The notes beneath the pieces are model-generated. The model searched no databases, had not been told where the DNA came from, and worked only from the letters and a program-made list of their open reading frames with translations. From Solobacterium moorei (lineage in GTDB: Bacteria > Bacillota_I > Bacilli_A > Erysipelotrichales > Erysipelotrichaceae): a stretch of DNA of 64,000 bases. A program made the position numbers and the translations under genes. The stretch lies in assembly GCF_036323475.1 (NCBI RefSeq), contig NZ_AP028934.1:1488001-1552000 (forward strand), in the 5' to 3' direction. Positions 24,597 through 29,624 of the stretch are shown in pieces (positions within the stretch are counted from its first letter, which is position 1; the number at the start of each line of letters is the position of its first letter).

Positions 24597-25628
24597 TTAT
24601 ACACCTTTGCTCTCTAATTCTTGTAGAACTTCAAAGATATCTCCATCAACACAGATACTACGTTCCACAATTTCCTTAGGACAATATGATTCTTGATAGT
24701 TTAGACATGCATATACAGCATTTGAATTCTCATACACCATTTGCCAAAAAGGATATTTGATGATAATGGGAGTATTCCCACCTACTTCAAGTTCTAGATA
24801 TAAAACATGTTTATTCTTATATTTCTCTAAAAACGCTGCGTATGCCGCAGATGCTTTATGCCATCCTTCATCTTCCACAAAGTTCTGATCTGCGCGTAAA
24901 TTCATTTCCATATCCGATACATCATCCATACATTTTGGAATCAAAGCAGTAGGTATCTCCATACGTATATTATGATTATTAGGTACTTGGAAGATACCAT
25001 GTTCATCCCTTACAAAACCCTGTGCTACCATTGCCTGCATAACCCATTCTTCATTATCATATGTCTTTTGATTTTTTTGATTAACACTTTGGAATAAGCC
25101 ATAATCTCCTTGTGTATAGAATATCCGTTTCTTGTCAAAACCACTTTTTTGAAACATGTGGTCTACATTTGTTGTAATTACAAAGTACTCCTTCTCTTGA
25201 ATGAGTCCTAATAGTTTTTGATATACCGATTTAGGTGGATTTACATAGCGATTAAAATAAATATGTCTTGCCCACCATGCCCAATAGATTTCCATTTTTG
25301 GAAATGGATAGAATCCACCTGAATACATATCTTGGATACCATAAGTAGCTGCAAAATCAAAGAAGTATTGTCTAAATCGTTTCCCACCATATGTAAAACC
25401 TGCAGCCGTAGAAAGTCCAGCACCAGCACCAATAACGATTGCATCAGCAGTTTTTATCGCATTAGCAAGTTGTTCTATTGTTTCTTGATCTAACTTTATA
25501 CCCTTATACATTTGACCACTAAAATTCCTTACACCGCGTAAACCATTTTGTATTGTTGTTTGGTACCCGTTTGGCAAACTACGATAAGAGTTGTTTGTAG
25601 ATTGCTTTGTCATCATTTTTAAAAACAT
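24597..25628 (-). CDS. Class M sirtuin (SirTM), predicted protein ADP-ribosyltransferase
   Basis: A 343-residue Sir2-fold protein. The NAD loop is IGAGAGLSTAAGF (about 66-78) and the TTNVD motif is at 152-156. Where canonical sirtuins have catalytic His in HG, this protein reads TQGDYG (Gln near 173), the change that marks SirTM enzymes. Those enzymes attach ADP-ribose to proteins instead of deacetylating them. The gene overlaps the macrodomain gene by 50 nt and its AAAGGGTG site lies inside that gene, so the two are coupled. No lipoate carrier GcvH-L or LplA2 gene lies beside it, so its target is open. Confidence 0.85.
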   Translation of the reverse strand: MFLKMMTKQSTNNSYRSLPNGYQTTIQNGLRGVRNFSGQMYKGIKLDQETIEQLANAIKTADAIVIGAGAGLSTAAGFTYGGKRFRQYFFDFAATYGIQDMYSGGFYPFPKMEIYWAWWARHIYFNRYVNPPKSVYQKLLGLIQEKEYFVITTNVDHMFQKSGFDKKRIFYTQGDYGLFQSVNQKNQKTYDNEEWVMQAMVAQGFVRDEHGIFQVPNNHNIRMEIPTALIPKCMDDVSDMEMNLRADQNFVEDEGWHKASAAYAAFLEKYKNKHVLYLELEVGGNTPIIIKYPFWQMVYENSNAVYACLNYQESYCPKEIVERSICVDGDIFEVLQELESKGV

Positions 25629-26385
25629 TAAATATCACCCTTTCCATTTTATCAGGATTACATTCCAGCCATTTTTCTACTGTCTTTACAGCCAGTTCTG
25701 CTGCCCGCTGATTTGGGAAACGAAATATACCTGTAGAAATACAACAGAATGCTACTGTTTTGAGATGATATTCTGCACACATCTCTAATACATTCCAATA
25801 ACAGTCCATCAACTGTTTCTCTAATGTACTATTTAATTCATTTTCTATAATTGGACCTACCACATGAATCACTTTCTTTGCAGGTAGGTTATATGCATCT
25901 GTAATCATTGGTACTGCTGTTGGTTGTTCATAGTCATTACCGTATTGCTTTCTTAACGCTTGCATCAATTGATTACATTCTTCTCTTAACTGTACGCCAG
26001 CATAGCTATGAATACAGTTATCAATACATGTATGCATAGGAATAAAACAACCTAGCATTTGAGAATTAGCCGCATTGACAATCGCATCAACTGCAAGTCT
26101 AGTAATATCACCTTGCCAAATAGATATGCCATGTTTTATTTCGTTAATCGAATCAATCTGAACAATTCCATTTTCTTCGATACATTCTTTTAAATATGCA
26201 TTCTGAACTTCTAGTACATCATCTGACATCTGCTTTGGCATACGAATATTCATTAAAGAACGCAAGATACGCTTCTTCTCTTCTATATTATTTGGGACGC
26301 GAATGTACTTATAATCTTTTGAATCCTCTTTAAATTTATCTACCAGATATGATAGTCGCTTTTCTTGTAGTTCACTTTTTATCAT
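25579..26385 (-). CDS. Zinc-dependent macrodomain protein, predicted ADP-ribosyl hydrolase
   Basis: The start at 26385 (after TTGGAGGTG) gives 268 residues. An N-terminal helical part precedes a macrodomain: IWQGDITRLAVDAIVNAANSQMLGC (about 90-115), then IPMHTCIDNCIHSYAG, which supplies the Cys-His-Cys pattern of Zn-macro enzymes. VIHVVGP and CISTGIFRFPNQRAAELAVKTV follow. Zn-macro proteins remove the ADP-ribose added by the paired SirTM. It lies just downstream of an Rrf2 regulator gene. Confidence 0.87.
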   Translation of the reverse strand: MIKSELQEKRLSYLVDKFKEDSKDYKYIRVPNNIEEKKRILRSLMNIRMPKQMSDDVLEVQNAYLKECIEENGIVQIDSINEIKHGISIWQGDITRLAVDAIVNAANSQMLGCFIPMHTCIDNCIHSYAGVQLREECNQLMQALRKQYGNDYEQPTAVPMITDAYNLPAKKVIHVVGPIIENELNSTLEKQLMDCYWNVLEMCAEYHLKTVAFCCISTGIFRFPNQRAAELAVKTVEKWLECNPDKMERVIFNVFKNDDKAIYKQLLS

Positions 26386-26404
26386 TGTCACACCTCCAAT
26401 TGTT

Positions 26405-26432
26405 TTAAAAAGATTCCGAATCATCGGAATCT
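26405..26432 (-). terminator. Terminator between rrf2 and the macrodomain gene
   Basis: A perfect 9-bp stem AGATTCCGA / TCGGAATCT with a 4-nt loop, followed on the minus strand by TTTT. No separate macrodomain promoter is obvious, so read-through from rrf2 is possible. Confidence 0.65.
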
Positions 26433-26871: not shown

Positions 26872-26907
26872 TTCAATTTCCTCCCGCCATCATTCTATTA
26901 CTTTTTT

Positions 26908-26930
26908 GTTGTAAGTTAAACTATTACATT
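26908..26930 (-). promoter_or_regulatory. Candidate Rrf2 operator, copy 1 (rrf2 promoter)
   Basis: The plus strand reads GTTGTAA, 9 nt, TTACATT. On the minus strand a TTTAAC / 17 bp / TAGAAT promoter for rrf2 overlaps it, so the site covers the -35 region. The same 7-9-7 layout recurs at 27727 and 27776. Confidence 0.65.
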
Positions 26931-27702
26931 AGAACTTGCCATTTTGGTTCTGCCATGTTTCCTTTTCAGCAATTGTTTCCATTACATCCCAATGTTCCGC
27001 AATCTTACCGTTTTCAACTCTAAATAGATCGTAGAAAGAAGTTGGCTTACCAGCAAAAGTTCCTTCAGATACAGCAAGAACATAATTACCCTGTGCAAGT
27101 ACTTGATAAGTTGTATTATAAATCATCTGAATTCCTTGTTTTGCAAGAGTTTCAAGTGCAGCACCCAATCCAGATACACCATCTGCAATTGCAGTATTAT
27201 GCTGAATATATGCATCGCCATTAAAATAGGATAATGTATTTTCTGGTGCCTTATTCTGTAATACATCATAAATGAAATTACTTACAAGTTTACGATTCTC
27301 TTCTGTTTTCTCTAAATCCTCAAGGTTATCATATCCGTCAATCTGTGAGTGTCCTGATGGATTCACAGAAGCCTTTGTAGCAAGATTGTCCCAGTGTTCA
27401 GCAATTTTTCCTTCTTTATCAAAACGGAAAATATCAAACGCCACCTGTTTACCCATACCAGCAAAGTTATACACAGTTTGCAAGAACACCTTATCACCAT
27501 CTTCAAATGCTCTGATATTTTCAACTGTTGTCTTTACTGGTGCAGATGCTAGATATTCTACTGCTTCTACAAATGCACCGGATCCAGTACCATACGCTAG
27601 ATTATGCTGAATATAATCCTCTGCTAATAATTCCTTTGCCTTTTCTGTATTGCCTGTTGTAAATGTGTTGATTAACTCTAATGCCTTTTCGATTTTTGTC
27701 AT
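26929..27702 (-). CDS. Tandem NTF2/SnoaL-like domain protein
   Basis: A 257-residue cytoplasmic protein made of two copies of an NTF2-like fold, about 1-120 and 135-250. Each copy carries AED/GDAYIQHN and F-x-x-G-K then FDIFRF/YDLFRV followed by GKIAEHWD, so the halves arose by duplication. Related SnoaL-like proteins are cyclases, hydrolases or stress proteins. Here the reaction is unknown. The gene has AAAGGAGAA and a strong promoter with two operator copies. It probably forms an Rrf2-controlled stress unit. Confidence 0.8.
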   Translation of the reverse strand: MTKIEKALELINTFTTGNTEKAKELLAEDYIQHNLAYGTGSGAFVEAVEYLASAPVKTTVENIRAFEDGDKVFLQTVYNFAGMGKQVAFDIFRFDKEGKIAEHWDNLATKASVNPSGHSQIDGYDNLEDLEKTEENRKLVSNFIYDVLQNKAPENTLSYFNGDAYIQHNTAIADGVSGLGAALETLAKQGIQMIYNTTYQVLAQGNYVLAVSEGTFAGKPTSFYDLFRVENGKIAEHWDVMETIAEKETWQNQNGKF

Positions 27703-27726
27703 GTTGTTATTCTCCTTTACCTGCTT

Positions 27727-27798
27727 GTTGTAACATTTATCATTACAACTTGTAAAACTACATTAGCATTGCGCAAATGTAATGTCAAGCATTACAAC
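27727..27798 (-). promoter_or_regulatory. Promoter of the NTF2-like gene with Rrf2 operator copies 2 and 3
   Basis: On the minus strand TTGACA (27783-27788), 17 bp, TAATGT (27760-27765) form a promoter. Copy 3 (AATGTAA-N9-TTACAAC, 27776-27798) covers the -35. Copy 2 (GTTGTAA-N9-TTACAAC, perfect, 27727-27749) lies just past the transcription start. This is a typical repression layout. Confidence 0.7.
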
Positions 27799-27894: not shown

Positions 27895-28986
27895 TTACTT
27901 GGTTTCTATTAATTTTTCAATATTGAATACTTTTACTAAAGTCCAAATTAATCCAACTGATAATAAGATATGTCCTAAACCACTCATTCCATTCAACGCT
28001 GACATATTGATGGTATTTCTATTCATGTCTAAAGCTTCAACAATTAGACTCACAATTTCATGAACACCAAGCACAAACATATTTACAACAGTAAACACGA
28101 GTCCTGCCTCCATCACATAAATTGGACGCTTCAACTTCTGTAGTTGTTCATCCGACATATTACCTGTCAAAAGATATAAGAGCAACATACCAATAAAGCC
28201 AAGTGTTAAGACATGTCCATGAATCTTACCTAAATGTGTTGGCTCGTAATATAAATAGAATTTACTGAACTCACGATAGAAAACACCAGTAAGCAATCCC
28301 ATAATTAGGTTTGTAAACGCAAGCCCTAGTAGATTGATTCGCTCAAAAGTACAAATATAATACTTATATCCAAATACAACTATCAATAAATATGCAACTG
28401 TCTTAGGCATCATAAGTGCGCCAACGATTGGATATGTATCACTCCATAATACGACTGGAATATAGAATAGAAAGCTAAGAAGAATCAAAATCCACATATT
28501 AGCCAGTCCTTCTTTCACCCTTTCCTGATATGACCAGTAAATGAGTAAAGCACCCATAATTGCGAAAGGAATATTACGATAAATACCAAACATATAATTT
28601 CCTTCTGCTGTGCCCCAGTTATTCATTGGCATCAGAACTAGAATGATTCGTACTAGCGCTAATGCATAGATTATTAACATTTTATTTTTGTCCATATCAC
28701 CACTTTGTCTACGATAAAAGTAATAATACAGAACATAGAAAACAGTCATAGTGATACTAGTTATAAATTGCCCCCATGACAATACAAAACTATATGTTTC
28801 AAAGCCAAAAGGACTAAGATGTGCAACGATTCTTGGAACTAAGTGGAATGCATCCCCCATGCCTAATAAAATTGCCATGATACCAAATAACTTTGCACCT
28901 TTTGTTTTTTCTAGCAATAGTCTAACGCCTAAACCAATTACAAGTGATAAATATGTCACATCAAATAAACTCTCAAAGATTGCCAT
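27895..28986 (-). CDS. Polytopic membrane protein, DUF2871-like C-terminus
   Basis: Starting at 28986 (GGAG 9 nt upstream; ATG at 28992 is too close to the SD) it has 363 residues and about ten hydrophobic spans. The C-terminal third, with LGKIHGHVLTLGFIGMLLLYL, looks like the DUF2871 family of Firmicute membrane proteins. The conserved HGH could bind a metal or haem. It overlaps the TetR gene by 14 nt, so it is the likely regulated partner. Function unknown. Confidence 0.7.
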   Translation of the reverse strand: MAIFESLFDVTYLSLVIGLGVRLLLEKTKGAKLFGIMAILLGMGDAFHLVPRIVAHLSPFGFETYSFVLSWGQFITSITMTVFYVLYYYFYRRQSGDMDKNKMLIIYALALVRIILVLMPMNNWGTAEGNYMFGIYRNIPFAIMGALLIYWSYQERVKEGLANMWILILLSFLFYIPVVLWSDTYPIVGALMMPKTVAYLLIVVFGYKYYICTFERINLLGLAFTNLIMGLLTGVFYREFSKFYLYYEPTHLGKIHGHVLTLGFIGMLLLYLLTGNMSDEQLQKLKRPIYVMEAGLVFTVVNMFVLGVHEIVSLIVEALDMNRNTINMSALNGMSGLGHILLSVGLIWTLVKVFNIEKLIETK

Positions 28987-29551
28987 TATCATTTACTCCT
29001 TTCATGATCCAATGAATATGCTGGCTAAATTTCTTTTGGAATTCCTGTGAAGACCACTGCTCCTGAAAGTTCCTTTTAATTAGCATGTGTACAACTCCTT
29101 GCAGATAATACATTTTTTCTCTTTCAATTGAGTTTTGATCTGTAAAAATTTGAATTTGATTCTGATACTCTTTTTTCCATCTCACATCCAGATTTTCATC
29201 CCAGTAAAGATATCTATTCTTATAAATAGGATATGCATTCGGGGCAAAGAGAATATCTGAAATTAACTCACTATACTCCAGCAAAGCTATTTCAAGATTA
29301 CCTTTTTTCTCATAAAGTAGCTTCATAAATAACTTATGAATATCCGTCACTTCTACATTCAAAACGGTAAAGTATGCATCTTCAAGATCATCAAAGTATT
29401 GATAGAAGCTCCCTCTTGCAATTCCTAACTCTTCAACAATCTCCTTGACCGTAACCTCTTGAAATGGTTTTTCTTGAAATATCTTTTTTAAAACAATCAA
29501 CACTTTTTCTTTCTTATCAGTTTTCAAGTTTTCAAAAGTATCTTTCGCCAA
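28973..29551 (-). CDS. TetR family transcriptional regulator
   Basis: Best start is TTG at 29551, 8 nt from GGAGG; the ATG at 29557 almost touches the SD. This gives 192 residues. The HTH is FQEVTVKEIVEELGIARGSFYQYFDDLEDAYF (about 30-60), the classic TetR N-terminus, and the rest is an all-helical ligand domain. It is translationally coupled to the membrane protein gene and preceded by a large palindromic operator, so it should repress this two-gene operon in response to an unknown ligand. Confidence 0.87.
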   Translation of the reverse strand: MAKDTFENLKTDKKEKVLIVLKKIFQEKPFQEVTVKEIVEELGIARGSFYQYFDDLEDAYFTVLNVEVTDIHKLFMKLLYEKKGNLEIALLEYSELISDILFAPNAYPIYKNRYLYWDENLDVRWKKEYQNQIQIFTDQNSIEREKMYYLQGVVHMLIKRNFQEQWSSQEFQKKFSQHIHWIMKGVNDNGNL

Positions 29552-29567
29552 ATACATCACCTCCAAA

Positions 29568-29624
29568 AAATGACACTGTGTCACTTCATAAATTAATTAT
29601 GAATGACACAGTGTCATTTGTCAA
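29568..29624 (-). promoter_or_regulatory. TetR promoter with double palindromic operator
   Basis: Two copies of the palindrome TGACACWGTGTCA (29571-29583 and 29604-29616) lie 33 bp apart, and the whole segment 29568-29619 is itself a near-perfect inverted repeat. The minus-strand promoter TTGACA (29619-29624), 17 bp, CATAAT (29596-29601) has one operator in its spacer and one just after the -10. Confidence 0.75.

Follow-up and report, generated by a model that had tools for sequence, protein, structure and literature searches.

The window analysed here, a stretch of 64,000 nucleotides from the Solobacterium moorei contig NZ_AP028934.1, carries three copies of an inverted repeat at the promoters of an rrf2 gene and of the gene for an NTF2-like protein. 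Our results suggested that these repeats are operators of a self-repressing stress operon. It is likely that a thiol/electrophile-responsive Rrf2 repressor of the SifR class autoregulates its own gene and represses ntf2-like, macroD and sirTM, the last two encoding a zinc-macrodomain hydrolase and a class M sirtuin (Table 1).

Table 1. Coordinates of the operators, promoter elements and genes in the window
Feature	Position	Strand	Description
Operator O1	27776..27798	-	Over the -35 of the NTF2-like promoter; TTGACA at 27788-27783; minus strand GTTGTAATGCTTGACATTACATT
Operator O2	27727..27749	-	Perfect inverted repeat, about +5 to +27, just past the -10
Operator O3	26908..26930	-	Over the -35 of the rrf2 promoter; minus strand AATGTAATAGTTTAACTTACAAC
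NTF2-like promoter -10, weak (TAATGT)	27760..27765	-	17 nt past TTGACA
rrf2 promoter -10 (TAGAAT)	26892..26897	-	17 nt past the -35 position inside O3
NTF2-like / tandem SnoaL_2 protein, 257 aa	26929..27702	-	PF12680, two stretches
rrf2, SifR/YwnA-class repressor, 146 aa	26431..26871	-	HxxPNPxC with Cys101
Hairpin followed by a short T run	26411..26432	-	Between rrf2 and macroD; -13.2 kcal/mol, z -2.2
macroD, zinc-macrodomain protein-ADP-ribose hydrolase	25579..26424	-	PRK04143; likely start 26385 behind GGAGG
sirTM, class M sirtuin, mono-ADP-ribosyltransferase type	24597..25628	-	Overlaps the end of macroD

Probable operators at the rrf2 and NTF2-like promoters

The original prediction had placed three GTTGTAA-N9-TTACAAC repeats at the two promoters, and all three are present there. 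O2 (minus strand, GTTGTAATGATAAATGTTACAAC) has no mismatch to this sequence, and O1 and O3 have two each, confined to the outer letters. The TGTAA and TTACA half-sites are perfect and 9 nt apart in all three operators. The spacers, which had been described as identical, are equal in length but differ in sequence among O1, O2 and O3. The positions over a -35 box and after a -10 box were also found as predicted, with O3 over the rrf2 -35, O1 over the NTF2-like -35, and O2 past the NTF2-like -10. O1 and O2, which are separated by 49 bp, form a pair of the 49-bp type found in relatives, and the rrf2 promoter carries one site, O3. O1 reached a position-weight matrix score of 28.6 (maximum 37.2). 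O3 is a weak site by the oriented matrix score, and it overlaps part of the NTF2-like stop codon.

The genome (2.6 Mb, 97% complete) was searched for further sites with patterns, and the reversed pattern served as control. The 23-mer with up to two mismatches was found at 25 places genome-wide versus 35 for the reversed control, so that it is not selective alone, and it was dropped as a genome-wide regulon finder. At the two-mismatch tolerance of the original prediction there is thus no genome-wide enrichment, but the clustering of exact cores here far exceeds chance. The genome contains 15 copies of the exact core TGTAA-N9-TTACA versus 11 of the control pattern, and three of the 15 fall inside 891 bp of this locus (Poisson P ~1e-8). 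On the oriented position-weight matrix, O1, O2 and O3 outscore all remaining exact-core sites that were scored. Where the context was examined, the site lies inside a gene, in a convergent gap or, with a very poor score, just upstream of a gene. By score, and by context where examined, the other exact-core sites were ruled out, including the best-scoring one at 382608 (convergent gap). When a refined 19-mer with up to three mismatches was used, the exact match in this genome was at O1 only, and the others were at chance level. From the low scores and the context of the other exact cores that were examined, the regulon in this genome appears to be this one locus.

Conservation was analysed in the DNA surrounding Rrf2 orthologs taken from genome collections (709 kb, ~110 loci). 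The exact core was found 202 times in these loci versus once for the reversed pattern. When one mismatch was allowed, 90 of 111 loci had a core in the 200 bp upstream of rrf2, most often at 56 to 76 bp from the start codon, and the position of O3 (-59 from the rrf2 start) is repeated in L006-L010, L050-L054 and L056. About 12 of those 90 sites are a TTTGTAACCGCC...GGTACAGC variant near -110 without the TTGACA centre, which may not be an operator. That the three repeats are chance palindromes of AT-rich DNA is extremely improbable. The 2-mismatch motif is indeed not enriched genome-wide, as such an origin would have it, but the clustering of three exact cores and the strong conservation at fixed positions stand against it, and this footprint already refutes it.

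The refined consensus RWTGTAAYNATTGACATTACAWY includes a TTGACA -35 box, and a TATAAT-like -10 is found exactly 17 nt downstream in 83 of 113 distinct ortholog sites, which means that the operator is superposed on the -35 box. Paired operators are also common in relatives. A second copy, mostly without TTGACA, follows 49 bp (39 of 82 pairs) or 42 bp (31 of 82) downstream and sits just past the -10. These two spacings account for nearly all pairs in L005-L114, and the 7 bp by which they differ do not make a helical turn.

Among 43 genomes with a strong Rrf2 ortholog, 25 contain the exact refined motif, as compared with 2 of the 106 genomes that lack such an ortholog (Fisher P 1e-14). This co-occurrence bears on whether a different regulator uses the sites, such as the TetR protein (28973-29584) encoded 1.2 kb away. 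Such an assignment is very unlikely, since the motif tracks Rrf2 across genomes, the other site-bearing loci yielded no relative of this TetR protein, and the core equals the operator of SifR, which is an Rrf2 protein. A membrane protein whose C-terminal half is DUF2871 (27895-28992) adjoins the TetR gene and is outside this regulon. The reading of the repeats as Rrf2 operators set for repression and autoregulation was strengthened, because this genome encodes a single Rrf2 protein and the operator is kept with its orthologs throughout the loci analysed.

In the proposed mechanism, a winged-helix Rrf2 dimer with reduced Cys101 would bind TGTAA-N9-TTACA. One dimer on O3 would mask the -35 of its own promoter. 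At the NTF2-like promoter, two dimers, with O1 on the -35 and O2 past the -10, would box in RNA polymerase.

The Rrf2 protein and its cysteines

The product of rrf2 belongs to the Rrf2 family (PF02082, 96.9 bits versus a curated cut-off of 30). Its predicted fold is a winged helix with a long alpha5 at residues 102-127, and the closest solved structures are 1ylf and 1xd7 (B. subtilis YwnA). The sequence HESPNPNC corresponds to the HxxPNPxC signature that marks the SifR/YwnA class; the strict signature is found in 50 of 106 Rrf2 orthologs. Cys101 is invariant (106 of 106) and, as in SifR/YwnA, is predicted to cap the N-terminus of alpha5. The operator of this class, TGTAA-N9-TTACA, is also the one found here.

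SifR, a quinone sensor of S. pneumoniae, uses TGTAA-N9-TTACA for repression, and the reaction of its Cys102, the counterpart of Cys101, with quinones causes DNA release; HypR binds the same core (PMC9218516). The original prediction had held the half-site to be unlike those of known Rrf2 members, but it is the published SifR/HypR core and is therefore already known. Models of the Fe-S regulators were also considered. IscR, NsrR and RirA require three cysteines, and the connector/alpha5 region of this Rrf2 has Cys101 alone. It scores far under the cut-offs of the NsrR and RirA models. A HypR assignment was rejected as well (NCBIfam NF041852, 48.1 bits versus a cut-off of 180; residue 33 is Gln).

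The SifR/YwnA monothiol class is defined by one conserved cysteine. The present protein has a second one, Cys16, which is kept in 100 of 106 orthologs and is absent from YwnA and 1ylf. It is therefore better labelled a SifR-class variant than a strict monothiol regulator. Because Cys16 is missing from YwnA and 1YLF, the sensor chemistry may be unlike that of SifR, and Cys16 could permit a dithiol switch. A HypR-like switch, in which Cys16 and Cys101 would sense hypochlorite or disulfide stress rather than form a monothiol adduct with a quinone, seems rather unlikely. The near-invariance of Cys16 beside Cys101 and an operator core identical to that of HypR would fit it. However, the HypR pair is Cys33 and Cys99 and residue 33 here is not Cys, the score with the NCBI HypR model is far too low, and the signature is that of the SifR/YwnA cluster. 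For the SifR-class repressor that we favour, Cys101, perhaps along with the clade-specific Cys16, would be modified by an electrophile (most likely of the quinone type) or an oxidant. Rrf2 would then come off the DNA, and ntf2-like, rrf2, macroD and sirTM would be expressed.

Probable link to the macrodomain and sirtuin genes

A small regulon of rrf2 and the NTF2-like gene had been predicted. These two members are supported, but the list was incomplete, since macroD and sirTM follow rrf2 in order on the same strand and have operators in front of them in relatives. The macroD product reaches 317.5 bits with the PRK04143 equivalog (cut-off 272), which identifies it as a Zn-macrodomain hydrolase, and its structure matches are 8rsi (E 8e-71), 5kiv and 8rsl. 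The best structure for sirTM is 5a3a (SpySirTM, E 3e-55). TQGDYG of sirTM aligns with QGEYG of SpySirTM, in which QG replaces the catalytic His; together with the overlapping macroD, this identifies sirTM as a SirTM gene.

No operator was found directly before macroD in this window, and a hairpin follows rrf2; control of macroD-sirTM here would thus rest on read-through. The gap between the hairpin and the macroD start is ~25 bp, which leaves no room for a promoter. Similar hairpins at the matching place in L053, L054 and L043 suggest partial termination. The hairpin is a possible partial terminator, and possibly an attenuator that sets the ratio of rrf2 to macroD-sirTM. After release of Rrf2, macroD and sirTM would be expressed by read-through past this hairpin.

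The sites might instead govern ntf2-like and rrf2 only, with macroD-sirTM cut off by the hairpin as a terminator and either constitutive or otherwise regulated. The hairpin with its T run, its counterparts in the three relatives, and the many relatives' SirTM operons without a visible operator agree with such a separation. We consider it unlikely, because the gap is too small for a separate promoter, and because rrf2 and macroD nearly abut in L010 and L037 or have an operator pair between them in L025, L027 and L031. Furthermore, the operator lies before sirTM itself in several loci. Inclusion of macroD-sirTM in the Rrf2 regulon is therefore preferred.

Altogether, an operator directly before macroD or sirTM was found in 13 loci: before macroD in L025, L027, L031, L066, L088 and L152, and before sirTM in L064, L065, L067, L102, L105, L106 and L108. 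The macroD operator of L152 is ~112 kb away from the rrf2 of that genome. By coordinates, sirTM lies within 5 kb of rrf2 in about half of the genomes that have both genes. For many SirTM/macroD operons of the same genus, no operator was found in the ~700 bases visible upstream, and the SirTM link is thus common and not obligatory.

An NTF2-like ortholog with the operator in front was found in 34 loci. Further genes behind operator pairs encode a YwnB-like NAD(P)-binding reductase (4r01), PPOX-class flavoproteins, nitroreductases and ACGX-peptide cassettes, and the genes at this position share a thiol/electrophile theme. The cassettes consist of an ACGX-repeat peptide (TIGR04341) and a radical SAM maturase (TIGR04340), and they were observed behind the operator pair in L055, L059 and L069 and also in L070, L073, L100 and L111. 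This cysteine-rich peptide may belong to the thiol-stress regulon.

GcvH-L and LplA2, the neighbours in the extended SirTM operon, are absent from the locus. In the 97%-complete genome, no match to GCV_H, Biotin_lipoyl or lipoyltransferase was found, and the positive controls were matched. The known SirTM substrate, lipoylated GcvH-L, thus appears to be missing from this genome. Given this lack of GcvH and lipoyl-domain matches, the SirTM target here is probably a different one. SirTM would mono-ADP-ribosylate this target, and macroD would take the mark off.

Comparison with known systems and implications

The system resembles SifR of S. pneumoniae and YwnA of B. subtilis in its Rrf2 fold, its HxxPNPxC motif, the reactive Cys at the alpha5 N-cap and the TGTAA-N9-TTACA operator. 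As in the SifR and ywnAB systems, the regulon of relatives includes a YwnB-like reductase. It differs from SifR in the second, nearly invariant cysteine of its clade (Cys16) and in a paired-operator promoter with fixed 42 or 49 bp spacing. Moreover, the SifR regulon comprises a catechol dioxygenase and iron uptake, whereas the genes here are NTF2-like, macroD and sirTM. HypR of Staphylococcus aureus, which controls merA, is likewise an Rrf2 redox repressor with this operator core, and its Cys99 is in the position equivalent to Cys101. HypR differs in its use of a Cys33-Cys99 disulfide, as position 33 here is not Cys.

Zinc-macrodomain and SirTM genes are known to rise under oxidative stress. 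The pair in this window shares with the published SirTM/Zn-macrodomain operons (PMC4518038, PMC11490716) the adjacent and overlapping macroD/sirTM genes and the QG in place of the catalytic His, with 5a3a and 8rsi as nearest structures. In contrast to the extended operons, it is a minimal pair without GcvH-L or LplA2, in a genome without a detected GcvH, lipoyl domain or lipoyltransferase. It also differs from the published operons in its link to an Rrf2 repressor and operator, and Rrf2 goes unmentioned in both papers. A 2026 preprint mentions a SifR-like Rrf2 in Lachnospiraceae and ties it to neither sirtuin nor macrodomain (PMC13404960). Searches that paired Rrf2 with nuclear transport factor 2, SirTM with Rrf2, or sirtuin/macrodomain with Lachnospiraceae returned no report of the link, in a literature scope that leaves most subscription journals outside. 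The operator core and the regulator class are known already. As far as searchable papers show, the link of Rrf2 to SirTM/Zn-macrodomain, the paired operator of fixed spacing and the extra cysteine are new.

The targets and the physiological role of SirTM pairs outside the extended operon are still elusive (PMC11490716). We tentatively propose, at somewhat less than even likelihood, that in Lachnospiraceae, Erysipelotrichales and their relatives a SifR-like Rrf2 with a two-cysteine switch (Cys16/Cys101) is dedicated to regulating the minimal SirTM/Zn-macrodomain pair and couples electrophile/thiol stress to ADP-ribosylation of something other than a lipoyl carrier. In conclusion, the footprint points to a predicted regulator and operator for the SirTM pairs of gut anaerobes and to the class of signal that is likely to act on them. 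With a SirTM and no detected lipoyl carrier, this S. moorei genome is a clean one for seeking a new ADP-ribosylation substrate, for which the co-regulated NTF2-like protein is one candidate.
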